Shown: in pieces, positions 22,930 to 33,427 of the stretch
Position numbering within the stretch: the first letter of the stretch is position 1
How the letters are laid out: every line of letters starts with the position of its first letter
NCBI RefSeq assembly: GCF_000283655.1
Contig: NC_016622.1
Coordinates: forward strand, 62,001 to 126,000
Origin: Azospirillum lipoferum 4B
GTDB lineage: Bacteria > Pseudomonadota > Alphaproteobacteria > Azospirillales > Azospirillaceae
DNA length: 64,000 bases
Direction of reading: 5' to 3'
Position numbers and translations under genes: made by a program
Notes under the pieces: model-generated
Database searches by the model: none
Seen by the model: the letters and a program-made list of their open reading frames with translations, nothing else
What the model was told of the DNA's origin: nothing

Positions 22930-23856
22930 GTGACGCTTCTGTTCTGCTCCGCCAGCGACAGCGCCGAGGATTGGCGCCGGGAAATCGCCCGCCATCTTCC
23001 CGACCTGGAGATGCGCGTCTGGCCCGAGACCGGCGACGTCGCCGACATCGAGGTGGCGGTGGTGTGGAAGCCGCCGGCCGGCATGCTGGCGACGCTGCCC
23101 AACCTGCGGCTGATCGTGTCGCTGGGCGCCGGGGTGGAACCGATCCTGCAGGACTCGACCCTGCCCGACGTGCCGCTGGTGCGGATGGTGTCGGAGGGAC
23201 TGACGGTCGATATGGCCGGCTATGTGGTCTATCAGGTTCTCTACTGGCACCGGCTGATGGATGCGTATGCCGCCTTCCAGGCCGAGGCGCGCTGGGAGCA
23301 GCGGGACCATCGCCCGGCCTCCGAGGTGACCGTCGGTTTCCTGGGGCTCGGCGAGCTGGGGGTGGCGTCGGCCCGCACGCTGCGGACCCTGGACTATCGC
23401 CTGAAGGGCTGGAGCCGCAGCCCCAAGAGCATCGAGGGGGTTGAGAGCTTCTCCGGTCCCGACGGGTTGGCGGCGATGCTGCCGCAGTGCGATGTGCTGG
23501 TCTGCCTGCTGCCGCTGACCGACGAGACCCGCGGCATCATGAATGCGGCGCTGTTCGCCGCCCTGCCCAAGGGGGCGGTGGTCATCAATGCCGCGCGCGG
23601 CGGGCATCTGGTCGAGTCGGACCTGCTCGACGCGCTGGAGAGCGGTCATCTGCGCGGCGCCAGCCTGGACGTCTTCGCGACGGAGCCGCTGCCGGCGGAC
23701 CATCCGCTCTGGCGCCATCCGAAGGTCCGCATCACCCCCCATGTCGCCGGCGTCACCCACCCGTCGCTCTGCGCCGTGCAGGTGGCCGATGCGGTGAAGG
23801 CCCTGCGCGAGGGCCGGCCGCTGCCCAATCTGGTGGACCGCAGCCGGGGATATTGA
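22930..23856 (+). CDS. Glyoxylate/hydroxypyruvate reductase A-like D-2-hydroxyacid dehydrogenase
   Basis: The 308-aa NAD(P)-dependent enzyme reduces glyoxylate or hydroxypyruvate in characterised GhrA proteins. The Rossmann motif is GFLGLGELG. The catalytic features are a conserved Arg in INAARGGHLVESDLL, Glu in the ATEPLPADHPLW region and His in ITPHVAGVTHPS. Length equals E. coli GhrA (312 aa). The GTG start at 22930 is chosen because family members begin here and the upstream extension overlaps the divergent pseudouridine synthase. IS630 copy 2 is inserted 9 bp after its stop. Confidence 0.85.
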   Translation: MTLLFCSASDSAEDWRREIARHLPDLEMRVWPETGDVADIEVAVVWKPPAGMLATLPNLRLIVSLGAGVEPILQDSTLPDVPLVRMVSEGLTVDMAGYVVYQVLYWHRLMDAYAAFQAEARWEQRDHRPASEVTVGFLGLGELGVASARTLRTLDYRLKGWSRSPKSIEGVESFSGPDGLAAMLPQCDVLVCLLPLTDETRGIMNAALFAALPKGAVVINAARGGHLVESDLLDALESGHLRGASLDVFATEPLPADHPLWRHPKVRITPHVAGVTHPSLCAVQVADAVKALREGRPLPNLVDRSRGY

Positions 23857-23874
23857 GCCCTTATACCAGCGGCT

Positions 23875-24612
23875 TTAGACATTGACCGCTGCCCACGAGC
23901 GTGAGGCGATTGAGCGAATGATTTCGGGTGCCTGGGCGAGAGCGTTCCACGCCTCGCAGCAGGCCTCGACGATGGCGGCATAGGAATCGAAGACGCGATG
24001 GCTGAGGTGGTTCTGTCGCAGGAACTGCCAGATGTTTTCGACCGGATTGAGTTCCGGGCAATAGGGCGGGAGATGCAGAAGGCTGATGTTTTCGGGCACG
24101 ACCAGCTTGTCGCCCGGCTGGTGCCAGCCTGCGCCGTCGAGGATGAGCACCGCATGGTGGCCGTCGCTCACTTGGCCGCTGATCTCGGCCATGTGCAGGG
24201 TCATTGCCGCGGCGTTGGCCTTGGGCAGGACCAAGGCCGCGGCGGCGCCACGGCTCGGGCAGACGGCGCCGAACAGGTAGGCCCAGCTATGGCGCTGGTC
24301 GCGGGGCGCGCGTGGCCGGCTGCCCTTGGCGGCCCACACCCGGGTCAGGGTCCCTTGCTGGCCGACCCGGGCTTCGTCCTGCCACCAGAGCTCCAGCGGC
24401 TTGCCGCGGGCGGTGTCGGGGAGGGCGCCGGCAACCAGAGCGGCAAAGTTTTTTTGTGAGCCTCGAGCGCCTCGCCATCCTGCTGAGGATGCTGGGGGCG
24501 CACCGACAGGCGACGGAACCCCAGACGGCGCAACAGCCCGCCAACGCTGCGCTCGGCCAGCACCACGCCGAACCGGCGCTCGATCTTGCGGGCCAGATCG
24601 CACCGCCGCCAC
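23875..24612 (-). CDS. IS630 transposase, catalytic part (orfB), copy 2
   Basis: The catalytic half carries DDE residues in WQDEARVG, LILDGAGWH and NPVENIWQFL. It is read after a shift at the T7 run (24449-24455 on the plus strand, A7 on the coding strand). The frame before the A run is a shadow of orfA. It is intact and likely active if frameshifting works. Confidence 0.85.
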   Translation of the reverse strand: MAAVRSGPQDRAPVRRGAGRAQRWRAVAPSGVPSPVGAPPASSAGWRGARGSQKNFAALVAGALPDTARGKPLELWWQDEARVGQQGTLTRVWAAKGSRPRAPRDQRHSWAYLFGAVCPSRGAAAALVLPKANAAAMTLHMAEISGQVSDGHHAVLILDGAGWHQPGDKLVVPENISLLHLPPYCPELNPVENIWQFLRQNHLSHRVFDSYAAIVEACCEAWNALAQAPEIIRSIASRSWAAVNV

Positions 24613-24941
24613 CGAACCACGCCATCCTCGGCGAGGTCCGGACCGGAGCGGACCCAGGACGCCACCTCCGCTTCCTGCTCCGCCGACAGCTTCGGCTTGG
24701 CTCCCGGTGCCTTACGATCCCGCAGCCCCGCCACGCCTTGGGCGTTGTAGCGGTGAACCCAATCCCGCAACGTTTGCCGATCCATCCCGCAAGACCGCGC
24801 GGCGTCCTCGCGAGATCGCCCCTCCAAAACCAGAGCTAGGGCGAGAAGGCGCCGCGCTACATCCGGATCGCCAAAACGCACCGCCCGCTGGCGCAACTCC
24901 GCTGAACTCAGCTCCAGCCGCGTGATCGCAATCGCCGCCAT
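24345..24941 (-). CDS. IS630 transposase, N-terminal part (orfA), copy 2
   Basis: The sequence is the same as the 198-aa orfA of copy 1, with the HTH domains and the A7 run at the same place. The ATG at 24941 has the GGAAGGAGG ribosome site. Identity to copy 1 over the whole frame points to recent transposition or gene conversion. Confidence 0.88.
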   Translation of the reverse strand: MAAIAITRLELSSAELRQRAVRFGDPDVARRLLALALVLEGRSREDAARSCGMDRQTLRDWVHRYNAQGVAGLRDRKAPGAKPKLSAEQEAEVASWVRSGPDLAEDGVVRWRRCDLARKIERRFGVVLAERSVGGLLRRLGFRRLSVRPQHPQQDGEALEAHKKTLPLWLPAPSPTPPAASRWSSGGRTKPGSASKGP

Positions 24942-27478: not shown

Positions 27479-27594
27479 TGGAACAGCGTGGAACAGGTTT
27501 CGGAAACTGTTCCATCGGGCGCGGCCGGGCGGTGAGCCGGCGGTTTGCCGGGTGGCGGAACAGGATGAAACAGTTTCCCGGTGATGTTCCATCG
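27479..27594. repeat. TGGAAC/GTTCCA dyad repeats, locus 1 (upstream of ubiE)
   Basis: Unit 1 has TGGAAC at 27479-27484 and then a near-perfect hairpin, TGGAACAG (27489-27496) with CTGTTCCA (27507-27514), followed by TCG. Unit 2 has GGAACA (27557-27562), GAAACAG, and TGTTCC (27585-27590) followed by ATCG. The same two-unit plan is found at 46324-46458. The remaining 27365-27831 region shows only an extra small dyad, GTAGG/CCTAC at 27619-27636, and no gene. Confidence 0.65.
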
Positions 27595-27831
27595 CCGTGG
27601 AGACCTCCTGGGGGGGGCGTAGGTAATCAATCCTACCATGGGGTCGGCTACCGGGAAAGGATGGGGAGAATTCCTGCCTGTCCGGCTTCGCCGTCCATTC
27701 GGCGGAAGAGCCCCAAGGCGCCGGCTGTGCTTGCCATCGGCCAGGGGCTGGCCTACTGACTGCCGGGAAGAACATACGCCCGTATTCCTGTGGCTGTGGT
27801 GGCCGTGGGTGGGAGCCTCTGGTGGATCGGC

Positions 27832-28788
27832 ATGACCCTTGCTGAAGCTTGCGCCGAATTCCTGACCCATTGCCGGGTCGCCAAGAACCTGTCGCCCCAC
27901 AGCCTGCGCGCCTACACCATCGATCTGGCCGAGTTCGAGCGGTTCGCCGGCCCCGCGACAGCGGTGGCGGTCGTCGACCGCCCGCTGCTGCGCCGCTATC
28001 TCAGCCACCTGTTCGAGGTGCGGCGGCTGAAGGAAACCAGCGTCAAGCGGCGGATCGCCTGTCTGAAGGTGATGTTCCGCTGGCTTGAGCTGGACGAGGT
28101 GATCGAGATCAGCCCCTTCCACCGGCTGGACGCCCGCATCCGCCTGCCGCGCCGCCTGCCCCGCAACCTGACCGACGACGAGGTGCGCCGCTTGCGGGCC
28201 GCTGCCTTTGCCGGGGCGGGGATTACCGGCCGGATCACCGAAACCAAGGCAGTGCGTGCCGCCCGCAAGGCCGACCATGACGCCTTCACGGCGCTGGTGG
28301 CGGTGGAGGTTCTGCTGGCCACGGGATTGCGCGTGGGTGAACTGGCCGGCATGCGGGCGGAGGATGTGGATCTGACCGGCCGCGTCATCACCATCGTCGG
28401 CAAGGGCAGCCGCCAGCGCCGGGTCTTCCTGCCCGATGATGCGGTGACGGCGCTGGTGACGGCTTATCAGGGTGTGACGGGCGCGCGGCGGCGTGACCAT
28501 GACCGGTTCCTGATGACGGGAACGGGCGGGCCGGCATCGACCCAGCATCTCCGCTTGCTGATTCGCGGAATTGGCGAGGATGCGCAACTGTCCCGCCGCG
28601 TCACTCCGCACATGCTGCGCCACACGGCGGCGACCCGGCTGCTGGAGAATGGCGTGGACATCCGGTTCGTCCAACGCCTGCTGGGGCACCAGAGCATTTC
28701 GACGACGGAAATCTACACGACGGTGACCGACGCCAGCCTACGGGCGGCGGTGGAAAAGGCAGCGGAGGGGATGAGGGGAGGGAGGTGA
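27832..28788 (+). CDS. Tyrosine recombinase (XerC/D-type integrase)
   Basis: The 318-aa protein has an N-terminal SAM-like domain (LSPHSLRAYTIDLAEFERF) and a full catalytic domain: R167 in GLRVGEL, K in GKGSRQRR, HMLRHTAATRLL, H286 in LLGHQSIS and the nucleophile Y295 in TTEIYTTV. Size and motifs fit XerC/XerD. It could be the housekeeping dimer-resolution enzyme or the integrase of the adjoining island. The ATG at 27832 is preferred over an upstream GTG. Base composition is GC-rich like the chromosome, unlike the AT-rich DNA that begins exactly at its stop codon (TGA at 28786-28788 overlaps the inverted repeat by 2 bp). Confidence 0.9.
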   Translation: MTLAEACAEFLTHCRVAKNLSPHSLRAYTIDLAEFERFAGPATAVAVVDRPLLRRYLSHLFEVRRLKETSVKRRIACLKVMFRWLELDEVIEISPFHRLDARIRLPRRLPRNLTDDEVRRLRAAAFAGAGITGRITETKAVRAARKADHDAFTALVAVEVLLATGLRVGELAGMRAEDVDLTGRVITIVGKGSRQRRVFLPDDAVTALVTAYQGVTGARRRDHDRFLMTGTGGPASTQHLRLLIRGIGEDAQLSRRVTPHMLRHTAATRLLENGVDIRFVQRLLGHQSISTTEIYTTVTDASLRAAVEKAAEGMRGGR

Positions 28789-30800
28789 TAACTAGGAATT
28801 ATATAAGCAGGCAAACAGGCGAGGCCAATGCCCAATACAACACTGAACCAGCTTGCAATTTTTTCAGAAAACGAACTGGTAAAGGCAAACGAAATTCTAT
28901 CGCGCCTCGACCCCAAAAGATTTCATCGAGAACGTTGAATGCGGGCTCTATATTCTGGAAAAACATTCTTAGTGAGGAGAGCGTAAGGCACCTTATTGAA
29001 AAATTGAGAGAGAATGAACTTAATGATGACCTGCTTATTCCGCAATTCGCCGGGATACTGGCGGATAAGGAAAGGTTTATATCAAATGTGCTAAAATATA
29101 GGATTAGCGTATGCGATCAGGGGATTGGTCCTCAAGATTATTTCAAGCAGCTCGAAACGTTAGAGATACTATGCCAATTACGCAATGCTTTGTCATCAGA
29201 TAACTTTGAACTGCACATTCAGTCAGGATACTTACTTGATGAGTTCTCACTTGCGGATGTTGCTCAAAATTGCATGAACCCTGCAAGAAATCCTTACCTT
29301 TCTTTAATTAAGAGAGACATCATACCGGCTATTATGAGCTACTCTCCCGATGTGCTATTTCTGACTGGCCGGATATCATTGTTTAATGCCGCTATTGCAA
29401 ATATAGTAAAAAGCTCCTCCCTTAACACACACATATCTTATACTCAGCACTCAACCGAGTACTATTCTATATCCAAAATGCTGAGTTGCATTCTGATGGC
29501 CTAATTATAAAATTTCCCTCAAGCCCGGTTGAAATTAGCTACAAGGAGTTCGTAGATATACTGCATGATCTACAACCATATTTTGCTCATATACATGATT
29601 ATTTCGCATTGTCAACAATCAGCATGCATTTCGGCGATCAATCGGCGGCATACGAGTATCTATTAAGAGGCCTCCTTCACAGTATTATGCGGCGTGATTT
29701 CCGCATGTTGAGATATTATTGTAAGCTTGCCTCATTCAAGAAATGTTTTACTCCTGATAGGGTCTATGATATACACATAGACCCAGGGAGTAAGTGTTAT
29801 TGGAACAAATGCGCATTTTGCGGCATAAATAAAAAGTACACCTCTGAGGATATTGACCAAATCCGGCGCTACCTAATTGACAACCCGTTTGGTCAATCGC
29901 AAATTCATGTGACTGTGAGCACGTCAATTCCCTATCAGGATATTTATCTCACTGCAATAACATTAGACCATATTAATTATACACTTACTAAGTACCTGCC
30001 AAACTCATCTAATTACATAACAATTAGGCACAATTCACCTATAACAATTGAAATATTTGCCAGCGACACACTGAACCAGCTCGCCGAATCCGGCCTCAGG
30101 GAGCTGCGACTTGGTCTGGAATCGGCTTCACAAAGCGTCTCACGAATCCAGGATGTCATTCTTAAGCACAACAAAATCAAAAGAGTAAAGATAGAGAATA
30201 GCTTGAAGGAATTGAAGTTTCAGAGAGAACTCGCCGGGGCTAACGACACAGCCGTATTCCCTAAGAGCAAAGGATCTGCACGCAAGAACCAATTAAGTCC
30301 GATAAATACCGTTTCGACCCCGAAAAAGAGTCGGAAAATAAGGGATAACGCTTCAATCAATGAAATATCAGAAAATATCGAAACAATCACCCACGTCATA
30401 AGCTCAGATAAAGAAATAAGCGGAGATCTCCGAGAGATGACTGTAGTTAATGAGCGCCGCCGCGTAAATAGTAACAAATAATTGATTATGAACTAGCATT
30501 ATCGTGCTTATGTAACGCTTAAAAAAATAATTTTGATGGACTCGACTGCAGAATCCATCGAACCAATCCCATATAAGGCTGGTGCCGTCTACATCTCTTA
30601 TAGACCCAGTAGTCTACTACAGATTAAGTGAAACGATTCGAAACACACTGACCTGGAAGAGCCAAAGGACAGTGAATTCAAAAATTGAGGCATCTGGCCG
30701 TAGTCAGATAATACTCAATAATAATCTCGTATTTTTGAGAAAACAAGACGGTAGTTATATCGCGTATAACTGGGATAATCATCATTATATGGAGGGCGAC
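28787..30800 (+). repeat. Left arm of a 2014-bp inverted repeat (AT-rich island)
   Basis: The sequence from GATAACTAGG at 28787 to GGAGGGCGAC at 30800 reappears as its reverse complement at 31073-33086. Translations of the two arms are identical over all shared reading frames, and the nucleotide stretches I compared show no mismatch. The GC content falls sharply against the flanks, so it is foreign DNA. The end GATAACTAG, with the preceding T, holds TGA, TAA and TAG in three frames. Confidence 0.95.
28828..30481 (+). pseudogene. B12-type radical SAM protein (RiPP-maturation-like), frameshifted, left copy
   Basis: A reconstructed protein of about 550 aa starts MPNTTLNQLAIFSENELVKA at ATG 28828 (ribosome site AGGCGAGG) and changes frame three times. 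The shifts are at AAAA 28915-28918, AAAAA 28959-28963 and AAAA 29475-29478. The middle part (SYSPDVLFLTGRISLFNAA) looks like a B12-binding-like Rossmann domain. The last frame (TTG 29486 on) has the cluster motif GSKCYWNKCAFCGINKKY and ELRLGLESASQSV. The CYWxxCxFC form is that of B12-dependent RiPP-maturation radical SAM enzymes. The last 100 residues do not resemble the family and may be degenerate. The AT-rich codon use marks it as acquired. It could be a decayed gene or hold sequencing indels. Confidence 0.65.
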
Positions 30801-30938
30801 ACACTTACAGTTTCCTCACTGAAGGTTATCACTTTTCTTGAAGGCACCTTTTTCATAACAGTATCTCCATTGCTACGTTGGACGAAATGTCCAAAACAGT
30901 CTGACCAGCGTCTTAGTTATTGCTGTATCACTAGATGA
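30582..30938 (+). pseudogene. PqqD/RRE-like protein, truncated left copy
   Basis: The first 73 residues (to NHHYMEGD) equal the right-arm gene. At 30800 the inverted repeat ends and the frame runs into unrelated spacer sequence, giving a meaningless 45-residue tail (stop at 30938). It therefore lacks the C-terminal winged-helix half and is a broken duplicate. Confidence 0.6.
30785..30856 (-). CDS. Short ORF cut by the fold-back junction (possible precursor peptide start)
   Basis: Downstream of the intact PqqD/RRE-like gene on the minus strand, ATG at 30856 opens MKKVPSRKVITFSEETVS, then crosses into the left arm at 30800 and stops after 23 codons. The segment before the ATG has a GGAGAT stretch as a possible ribosome site, so a real gene began here before the duplication cut it. 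Its place after a radical SAM and an RRE-like gene would suit a RiPP precursor, but nothing in the sequence proves that. Confidence 0.35.
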   Translation of the reverse strand: MKKVPSRKVITFSEETVSVSPSI

Positions 30939-31291
30939 TGGTATTTAAGCATTTTTGCAAGATATGATCTGACATCATCTTCATGCATGCCGTATTTTTG
31001 GCAGATGTTAGCCAATCCAAAATCCAATTGAAGAGGATTCCTCCATTCTTCGATAATATTTCGTAATGTTTCGTCGCCCTCCATATAATGATGATTATCC
31101 CAGTTATACGCGATATAACTACCGTCTTGTTTTCTCAAAAATACGAGATTATTATTGAGTATTATCTGACTACGGCCAGATGCCTCAATTTTTGAATTCA
31201 CTGTCCTTTGGCTCTTCCAGGTCAGTGTGTTTCGAATCGTTTCACTTAATCTGTAGTAGACTACTGGGTCTATAAGAGATGTAGACGGCAC
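30917..31291 (-). CDS. PqqD/RRE-like small protein (right copy, intact)
   Basis: This 124-aa protein has strands around SQIILNNNLVFLRKQDGSYI and YNWDNHHYMEGD, then helices RNIIEEWRNPLQLDFGLANI and EDDVRSYLAKMLKYHHLV. This is the beta-beta-beta / winged-helix order of PqqD-type RiPP recognition elements, which present a precursor peptide to a modifying enzyme. Partnership with the upstream radical SAM gene on the same strand agrees with this. The start is GTG at 31291 after AAGGCTG; another frame from ATG 31337 (MDSTAESIEPIPYKAGAVYI) also looks coding, so an N-terminal frameshift is possible. The family call is from pattern only. Confidence 0.5.
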   Translation of the reverse strand: MPSTSLIDPVVYYRLSETIRNTLTWKSQRTVNSKIEASGRSQIILNNNLVFLRKQDGSYIAYNWDNHHYMEGDETLRNIIEEWRNPLQLDFGLANICQKYGMHEDDVRSYLAKMLKYHHLVIQQ

Positions 31292-33086
31292 CAGCCTTAT
31301 ATGGGATTGGTTCGATGGATTCTGCAGTCGAGTCCATCAAAATTATTTTTTTAAGCGTTACATAAGCACGATAATGCTAGTTCATAATCAATTATTTGTT
31401 ACTATTTACGCGGCGGCGCTCATTAACTACAGTCATCTCTCGGAGATCTCCGCTTATTTCTTTATCTGAGCTTATGACGTGGGTGATTGTTTCGATATTT
31501 TCTGATATTTCATTGATTGAAGCGTTATCCCTTATTTTCCGACTCTTTTTCGGGGTCGAAACGGTATTTATCGGACTTAATTGGTTCTTGCGTGCAGATC
31601 CTTTGCTCTTAGGGAATACGGCTGTGTCGTTAGCCCCGGCGAGTTCTCTCTGAAACTTCAATTCCTTCAAGCTATTCTCTATCTTTACTCTTTTGATTTT
31701 GTTGTGCTTAAGAATGACATCCTGGATTCGTGAGACGCTTTGTGAAGCCGATTCCAGACCAAGTCGCAGCTCCCTGAGGCCGGATTCGGCGAGCTGGTTC
31801 AGTGTGTCGCTGGCAAATATTTCAATTGTTATAGGTGAATTGTGCCTAATTGTTATGTAATTAGATGAGTTTGGCAGGTACTTAGTAAGTGTATAATTAA
31901 TATGGTCTAATGTTATTGCAGTGAGATAAATATCCTGATAGGGAATTGACGTGCTCACAGTCACATGAATTTGCGATTGACCAAACGGGTTGTCAATTAG
32001 GTAGCGCCGGATTTGGTCAATATCCTCAGAGGTGTACTTTTTATTTATGCCGCAAAATGCGCATTTGTTCCAATAACACTTACTCCCTGGGTCTATGTGT
32101 ATATCATAGACCCTATCAGGAGTAAAACATTTCTTGAATGAGGCAAGCTTACAATAATATCTCAACATGCGGAAATCACGCCGCATAATACTGTGAAGGA
32201 GGCCTCTTAATAGATACTCGTATGCCGCCGATTGATCGCCGAAATGCATGCTGATTGTTGACAATGCGAAATAATCATGTATATGAGCAAAATATGGTTG
32301 TAGATCATGCAGTATATCTACGAACTCCTTGTAGCTAATTTCAACCGGGCTTGAGGGAAATTTTATAATTAGGCCATCAGAATGCAACTCAGCATTTTGG
32401 ATATAGAATAGTACTCGGTTGAGTGCTGAGTATAAGATATGTGTGTGTTAAGGGAGGAGCTTTTTACTATATTTGCAATAGCGGCATTAAACAATGATAT
32501 CCGGCCAGTCAGAAATAGCACATCGGGAGAGTAGCTCATAATAGCCGGTATGATGTCTCTCTTAATTAAAGAAAGGTAAGGATTTCTTGCAGGGTTCATG
32601 CAATTTTGAGCAACATCCGCAAGTGAGAACTCATCAAGTAAGTATCCTGACTGAATGTGCAGTTCAAAGTTATCTGATGACAAAGCATTGCGTAATTGGC
32701 ATAGTATCTCTAACGTTTCGAGCTGCTTGAAATAATCTTGAGGACCAATCCCCTGATCGCATACGCTAATCCTATATTTTAGCACATTTGATATAAACCT
32801 TTCCTTATCCGCCAGTATCCCGGCGAATTGCGGAATAAGCAGGTCATCATTAAGTTCATTCTCTCTCAATTTTTCAATAAGGTGCCTTACGCTCTCCTCA
32901 CTAAGAATGTTTTTCCAGAATATAGAGCCCGCATTCAACGTTCTCGATGAAATCTTTTGGGGTCGAGGCGCGATAGAATTTCGTTTGCCTTTACCAGTTC
33001 GTTTTCTGAAAAAATTGCAAGCTGGTTCAGTGTTGTATTGGGCATTGGCCTCGCCTGTTTGCCTGCTTATATAATTCCTAGTTATC
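31073..33086 (-). repeat. Right arm of the 2014-bp inverted repeat
   Basis: This is the reverse complement of 28787-30800 (a position p in the left arm corresponds to 61873-p). The spacer 30801-31072 (272 bp) continues the right arm operon naturally: it holds the end of the PqqD/RRE-like gene and the start of a further short ORF. The right-hand side therefore looks like the original, and the left arm the added inverted copy. Confidence 0.95.
31392..33045 (-). pseudogene. B12-type radical SAM protein (RiPP-maturation-like), frameshifted, right copy
   Basis: This is the mirror copy of 28828-30481 with the same three frame changes at the same A runs, the same CYWNKCAFC cluster motif and the same odd C-terminus. 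It is followed on the same strand by the intact PqqD/RRE-like gene after about 100 bp. Because all indels are shared, the decay or sequencing errors predate, or were copied with, the inverted duplication. Confidence 0.65.
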
Positions 33087-33427
33087 GTCTAGAGTGTTGA
33101 TGAACACAATGCGCCGAAGCGCATCGCCCTCTGGTAGGCTGCCAGAAATTTGGCATATTCTCAAGCGACAATATGTCTCTGGGATCTGCATCCCTTGGTA
33201 GGTGCGCTCCTCCAAACAGATCGGCTTTCCGTCATCCATGCCCCCGCGCGCGCTGCCTGGAGTTTTCGCAGACTTCAACAAACACCCACCCCCACATCCC
33301 CCTTGCATCCCGCCGTCCCCGCGCGTATAAGCGCATCCTTCCACGGGCGGCGAGGCTGGGCCGTATGGCTCAGGGCATGCCCAACCGTCCGATGGAATTC
33401 CGCCTCATTTCCCTCTAGGAAACGAAA
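33087..33427. other. 341-bp region between the island and rpmI
   Basis: No convincing gene is seen. infC, the common upstream neighbour of rpmI, is missing. A minus-strand open stretch ends LRRIVFINTLDDN with its stop inside the right arm end, but it has no family resemblance. The region should hold the promoter of the ribosomal operon; I cannot pick a clear -35/-10. Confidence 0.4.

Follow-up and report, generated by a model that had tools for sequence, protein, structure and literature searches.

A perfect 2-kb inverted repeat beside an Xer-like recombinase gene in Azospirillum lipoferum 4B as a probable derivative of an inversion locus

Inversion switches with convergent alternatives are already known, as are switches operated by tyrosine recombinases. 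Two-gene inversion switches include the G segment of phage Mu and the pilin inversion of Moraxella (Marrs et al. 1988, as cited in PMC11868660). In this type of switch, a pair of inverted sites encloses two convergent alternative gene ends, and the constant neighbour side decides which of them is used. In switches of the FimB/FimE type and in those of the RecV recombinase of C. difficile, a tyrosine recombinase acts on short inverted repeats (PMC5903667; PMC11868660), and the invertible part is frequently intergenic or 5' untranslated DNA (PMC5903667). Here, we analyzed a stretch of 64,000 nt of Azospirillum lipoferum 4B (NC_016622.1, positions 62,001 to 126,000 of the forward strand; hereafter the window), in which a long palindrome adjoins the gene of an Xer-like tyrosine recombinase. 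Our reading, to which we assign a probability of about 0.7, is that this palindrome derives from an inversion locus encoded together with its tyrosine recombinase, in which one of two gene cassettes has been replaced by an inverted copy of its partner, probably when two inversion isomers were joined illegitimately. Such a history would provide a natural route from an inversion switch to a long palindrome of the kind otherwise dismissed as an assembly error.

Compared with the Mu and Moraxella switches, the recombinase of the window type is an Xer-like tyrosine enzyme and not of the Gin or Piv type, and the alternatives are whole unrelated genes, whose identity varies by locus, instead of variants of one protein. 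Serine-invertase switches (Gin/Hin) differ in enzyme class as well, as the window protein belongs to the Phage_integrase family and not to the serine resolvase type. Unlike the FimB/FimE and RecV switches, the loci described here hold coding cassettes of ~2-10 kb with starts mostly at the site. The best-scoring equivalog models for the window recombinase were those of XerC/XerD, yet far below their cut-offs (197/335 bits for XerC and 185/330 bits); the dif core is ATAA-N6-TTAT, which the window-type site resembles, except that the latter has a 7-nt centre and occurs as inverted twins. Integrons have in common with the window a tyrosine recombinase beside variable acquired gene cassettes, but we rejected this assignment, given that the integron-integrase model TIGR02249 scored 99 bits against a cut-off of 265 and that the sites are short, inverted and not in an array: the window holds one inverted pair of ATAA-N7-TTAT and no direct array of it, attC-type structures not having been searched for. 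In the literature, covered through titles and abstracts among the matches listed and with preprints and most subscription journals outside the scope, no Xer-like recombinase bounding whole-gene cassettes of an enzyme and an immune-type NTPase was found.

A repeat search of the window returned a single inverted pair with arms of 2014 nt, 100% complementary and 272 nt apart, and direct comparison of the arms gave 0 mismatches in 2014 positions, so the exact mirror arms and 272-bp spacer reported by a first-pass annotation made from the sequence alone were confirmed (Table 1). The same annotation had called this DNA AT-rich and foreign-looking, in agreement with a G+C content of 40.4% in the arms and 37.5% in the spacer versus 67.8% in the remaining window (66.4% in the 286 nt 5' of the left arm). 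It had also pointed to an adjoining tyrosine recombinase, and the gene that ends at the left arm indeed encodes a Phage_integrase match, with R167, K191, H260, R263, H286 and Y295, which we take to be the catalytic residues, invariant in the recombinase alignment (A1).

What had been missed in the first-pass annotation is that the palindrome terminates on both outer sides in recombination-type sites of the neighbouring recombinase, and that related loci carry two different convergent cassettes between such sites. The same 15-nt site, ATAACTAGGAATTAT, is present at both outer ends (28788+ and 33085-), and the stop codon of the recombinase gene (28786-28788) overlaps the left one. The 16-nt sequence at the outer end of either arm, GATAACTAGGAATTAT, recurs beside homologous recombinases in other genomes. 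An inverted ATAA-N7-TTAT pair with equal N7 appeared in 0/30 dinucleotide shuffles of the window, and eight loci, shuffled 30-60 times each, likewise yielded none. The pattern GATAACTANNAATTAT was detected in 5/45 genomes of the genus set, all five of them recombinase carriers, and a reversed control pattern in 0/45.

At the inner junction (30800/30801), which lies within open reading frames (ORFs), there is no site. The left arm stops within the 124-aa ORF, in keeping with the proposal that the left half is the duplicate. The right half plus spacer had been read as one operon, and it is continuous in that the 124-aa ORF (31291 to 30917) enters the spacer and the next ORF runs from 30856; the operon itself, however, looks broken. 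The window cassette appears decayed as judged from its reading frames, with a first part split over three of them and a radical-SAM-like ORF whose Pfam match is partial and below the cut-off (21.8 vs 29.5 bits). Its first ATG is found 25 nt past the site end in a frame of 36 codons, and no ORF of 100 aa starts at the site. The 124-aa ORF had no above-cut-off family match in profile searches and is PqqD/RRE-like by eye only.

Table 1. Positions of the features of the A. lipoferum 4B insert, numbered from the first nucleotide of the window
Feature	Position	Strand	Description
Whole insert	27594..33289		Recombinase, sites, segment and outer right end; missing from the ubiE-rpmI gap of nine relatives
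Xer-like tyrosine recombinase	27790..28788	+	332 aa from GTG; 318 aa from conserved ATG at 27832; PF00589 E 1.3e-38
Left arm	28787..30800	+	Truncated inverted copy of the right cassette, break inside the 124-aa ORF
Recombinase-proximal site	28788..28802	+	ATAA-CTAGGAA-TTAT; also beside homologous recombinases elsewhere
Spacer	30801..31072		Last part of the 124-aa ORF, then the beginning of a fourth ORF cut at 30800/30801
Fourth ORF start	30801..30856	-	Begins MKKVPSRKVITFSEETVSV; truncated by the junction
124-aa ORF	30917..31291	-	Open throughout, spans the arm/spacer border
Right arm	31073..33086	-	Apparently decayed cassette: radical-SAM-like ORF 31392-32387 and N-terminal fragment 32369-32938, in different frames
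Distal site	33071..33085	-	ATAA-CTAGGAA-TTAT, read on the - strand
Outer right end	33087..33200		Scattered blocks common with A. oryzae COC8, among them a small hairpin (33109-33124, ATGCGC-CGAA-GCGCAT)

Twenty relative loci were compared with the window by BLAST. In nine of them, the ubiE side (to ~27593, earlier in a few) lies near the rpmI side (from ~33290) with nothing insert-like between, and these nine genomes have no recombinase of the window family; as they carry the joined flanks without either component, recombinase and palindrome constitute one insert, of ~5.7 kb, between the ubiE side of the recombinase gene and rpmI-rplT, with pheST next (by eye). In the other 11/20 loci only the rpmI side aligned, and one of these is the element-bearing Azospirillum oryzae COC8 (genome G016). 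There, a recombinase with 96% aa identity to that of the window occupies the same chromosomal place, its stop codon overlaps GATAACTAGGAATTAT, and a second, inverted copy of this sequence lies ~2.6 kb further, so that the two copies match the outer ends of the window arms. Between them, COC8 carries two convergent genes unlike those of the window, one for an aminotransferase-like protein (387 aa) and one for a pentapeptide-repeat protein (493 aa), and to the right of the distal site both strains keep conserved blocks over ~100 nt. The contents of the two species thus differ, with edges at the site. A hairpin similar to that of the window, with a changed loop, is also found outside the distal site of COC8.

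The recombinase family was surveyed in 16 loci: the window, 7/45 genomes of the genus set (E<=1e-60; its named members are mostly Azospirillum), 3/385 genomes of the class, 3/398 of the phylum, G794, and plasmid pMRAD01 of Methylobacterium radiotolerans. A set of 48 genomes from the order and class of the three phylum-level carriers held the same three, and G794 came from 17 genomes of the order of G371; a Methylobacterium bullatum match with 34% query coverage was left out of the counts. We did not retain the reading as a phage or plasmid element: pMRAD01, which has the same anatomy, was the one plasmid match to the window recombinase at E<=1e-40, and viral contigs held no relative of the element; 38 phage records with 30-34% relatives, among the matches listed, were not part of the site survey. 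A site follows the recombinase stop codon in 11/16 loci, overlapping it in eight, starting 5 or 8 nt past it in two and 51 nt past it in one. Two inverted sites with one common 7-nt centre are present in 10/16 loci (the window and 9/15 others). This centre is CTAGGAA in the window, G016 and G451, CTAATAA in G051, CTACTAA in G046, CTAAGAA in G013, CTCGGAA in G032 and G371, TCGGGGA in pMRAD01 and CTAGAAA in G525. Strand exchange by tyrosine recombinases demands equal centres within a locus, and a centre that is equal within each locus while differing between most loci is what it would demand. G014 and G331 show one site and then the contig end, and G044 retains one intact site; in the latter (the carbamoyltransferase/SIR2 locus, L046 9180-9520), a stretch that by eye resembles an insertion sequence (IS) cuts the other site and the recombinase, perhaps freezing the locus.

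More distant relatives were placed outside the family. Those from Omnitrophota (L053-L055, 28-29% identity) lack an inverted pair, and ATAA-N7-TTAT is absent within 200 nt of their stop codons. The G451 recombinase has seven relatives on plasmids of the Roseobacter group (35-37% identity), which were taken as outside the family because 3/3 examined lack sites. One Omnitrophota locus (L054) has an imperfect AT-rich local repeat after the recombinase stop codon, and a more distant relative without sites, on a Sulfitobacter plasmid (L085), has a Qat anti-phage operon a few kb away.

In all nine loci besides the window in which both sides could be read, the cassettes are convergent and different, and never form an array. 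One of them (side A) is biosynthetic, above Pfam cut-offs in 8/9 loci: an aminotransferase in G016, a GT2 glycosyltransferase in G051 and G371, a carbamoyltransferase in G044, a D-Ala-D-Ala-ligase-like protein in pMRAD01, GT4 in two overlapping ORFs in G525, an aminotransferase plus a sulfotransferase in G451, and an operon for DegT, radical SAM, acetyltransferase and inositol-phosphate-synthase proteins in G046, which is closed by a SIR2 protein; G032 has only a sub-threshold ATP-grasp match. The opposed cassette (side B) is of immune-NTPase, SIR2 or TIR type in 7/9 loci, with SIR2 plus an NTPase region in G044 and G451, Mrr plus AAA in G051, an AAA-type NTPase in G046 and pMRAD01, an NTPase below the cut-off in G525 and a TIR-like protein (PADLOC) in G371, the others being the pentapeptide protein of G016 and an unassigned product in G032. 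PADLOC gave partial SIR2, TIR or NTPase matches to the cargo or none, with no full-length match to a defence model (Avs/Thoeris-type), and G016 scored 25.7 bits against a cut-off of 250 bits for the HalA model; side B is therefore termed defence-like, and its proteins are not regarded as members of named systems. STAND/SIR2/TIR-type immune NTPases and conflict-system glycosyltransferases (PMC7159879) have cargo domains in common with these loci, namely SIR2 plus NTPase, Mrr plus AAA, TIR-like and GT4-conflict, and a word search of that article brought up no inversion locus.

From this computed anatomy, comprising the sites, the family, the different contents at the same place in another species and the truncation at the junction, we infer inversion, expression switching and a route to the palindrome. 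The normal locus would read recombinase, site, cassette A, opposed cassette B and inverted site, and recombination between the 15-nt ATAA-N7-TTAT sites, which have an equal, asymmetric N7, would flip the segment and place either A or B beside the recombinase. Cassettes start within 2 nt of the site end in 14/17 cases and at +7, +15 and +76 in the others (nine loci, the damaged end of G044 being left out), a distribution that lacks a chance control. With a start codon at the site, ribosome binding must come from the site or from the outside flank. The tail of the recombinase gene, whose stop codon mostly overlaps the site, would mostly supply a Shine-Dalgarno (SD)-like sequence, and the distal cassette would have no such flank. 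Over the 30 nt that precede the site, the affinity for the anti-SD sequence averaged -9.2 kcal/mol on the proximal side (n=11 loci) versus -2.3 on the distal side (n=10), with a permutation P of 0.0002 that is optimistic, as the Azospirillum loci are related, and with base composition explaining much of the contrast, given that shuffled proximal flanks score -7.1. The SD-rich flank and overlapping stop codon suggest that the recombinase-side cassette is translated and the other is not, and that inversion would swap them. The neighbour of the recombinase is side A in 6/9 loci and side B in 3/9 (G044, G032 and G451), as expected if the segment flips. A search for Sigma-70-like promoters was uninformative (12 found vs 9.8 expected in shuffles).

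As for the palindrome, two inversion isomers would most likely have coexisted, on sister chromosomes or in the population, and an illegitimate or microhomology join would have linked one of them, at a point ~2.0 kb past its proximal site, to the fourth ORF of the other. The partner cassette would thereby have been lost, leaving a near-palindrome in which inversion alters only the 272-nt spacer. Isomer joining would explain together the outer ends at the sites, the differing flanks and an inner junction at no site.

Contig ends in other genomes also fall close to sites: 4/23 sites are 55-137 nt from one, twice in G013 (both 127 nt) and once each in G014 and G331. Both G013 cases concern a second insert (L063 and L067, on contigs C6 and C7), where a CTAGGAA-centred site, from its first base on, opens the terminal 127 nt of each contig. 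Seven Azospirillum plasmids, the same for both contigs, carry the flanks of C6 and C7 next to each other at a distance of 40-57 nt (MFS / AAA ATPase), so the two contigs represent the two sides of one insert, in whose flanks no family recombinase was found. The assembler to which the naming style of the G013 record points uses k-mers of up to 127, and the equal 127-nt stops fit a graph branch at the site, which is suggestive, but no proof, of two coexisting arrangements or of a second copy.

An artefact of assembly or library would hide a real locus with one cassette copy and a different partner behind a fold-back or chimeric read, or behind a population of mixed orientation. Fold-back reads give perfectly identical long arms with a unique spacer, the appearance of this palindrome, and the assemblies of relatives break at sites in the four cases above. 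A fold-back would, however, repeat one outer flank, whereas here the recombinase side and the rpmI side differ, switching exactly at the site, so that for an artefact the data would have to contain both isomers besides a fold-back. In addition, the genes checked outside the element (ubiE, L35 and L20) match their Pfam families well, and we consider this explanation unlikely. The first-pass annotation had offered a recent fold-back duplication or an assembly fold-back; a plain fold-back alone, in vivo or in the assembly, leaves unexplained that the left copy ends exactly at the site, beyond which it passes into the side of the recombinase. A further alternative is an ordinary inverted duplication in vivo, by template switch at the fork with the recombinase as a mere neighbour. 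The siteless inner junction inside ORFs does imply at least one illegitimate step, but the outer ends match, base for base, a site that is conserved next to homologous recombinases of other genera, and we consider this origin very improbable.

Another explanation assigns the sites to cassette capture or exchange, integron-like or by recombinase-mediated cassette exchange, instead of to a reversible switch, with convergent order as a by-product. The wholly different contents of two species at one place with edges at sites would follow from it, as would the nearly empty G013 C23 locus (two inverted sites 187 nt apart, L047 7601-7788) and the second G013 insert with its sites and recombinase-free flanks. 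Against it, 10/10 site pairs are inverted and none direct, which favours inversion over excision, and the nine readable loci each have two opposed cassettes. The capture and switch views are compatible, and we regard capture in place of a switch as unlikely. Several observations also weigh against an origin from joined isomers of an inversion locus, besides the qualifications already attached to the start positions and SD scores. No single locus was seen in both orientations, and the route from two cassettes to a palindrome is a reconstruction; no relative of the duplicated cassette, with which the junction could be compared as with an ancestor, was found in plasmids or in the 45 genus genomes. 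In three of the 16 recombinase carriers (G050, G456 and G794), the 11-20 kb examined contain no exact site, the exact GATAACTANNAATTAT pattern is absent from 2/7 genus carriers (G014 and G050), one arm of the proximal site is degenerate in G013 and G014, the G451 recombinase lies 593 bp outside the site pair, and the proximal flank of G525 is not SD-like (+0.9).

Tentatively, and with somewhat less than even confidence, we propose that these loci represent a previously undescribed family, present in Alphaproteobacteria and in a second class of that phylum, in which an Xer-like recombinase may flip translation between a biosynthetic or modifying enzyme and an NLR-like immune effector (SIR2-NTPase, Mrr-NTPase or TIR-like), with start codons built into the site; the locus in the window would be a locked form with one cassette on both sides, from joined flip isomers. 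If this were true, each bacterial cell would settle, by means of the recombinase, on either a modifying enzyme or an immune-type protein, a form of bet-hedging in defence directly testable by long-read counting, and the 15-nt signature could be used for finding such loci. Elsewhere in the window, at 23646-24941 on the - strand, there is a transposase that is IS630-like by its domain order on reading, in two overlapping ORFs (HTH at 24345-24941 and DDE_3 at 23875-24612).

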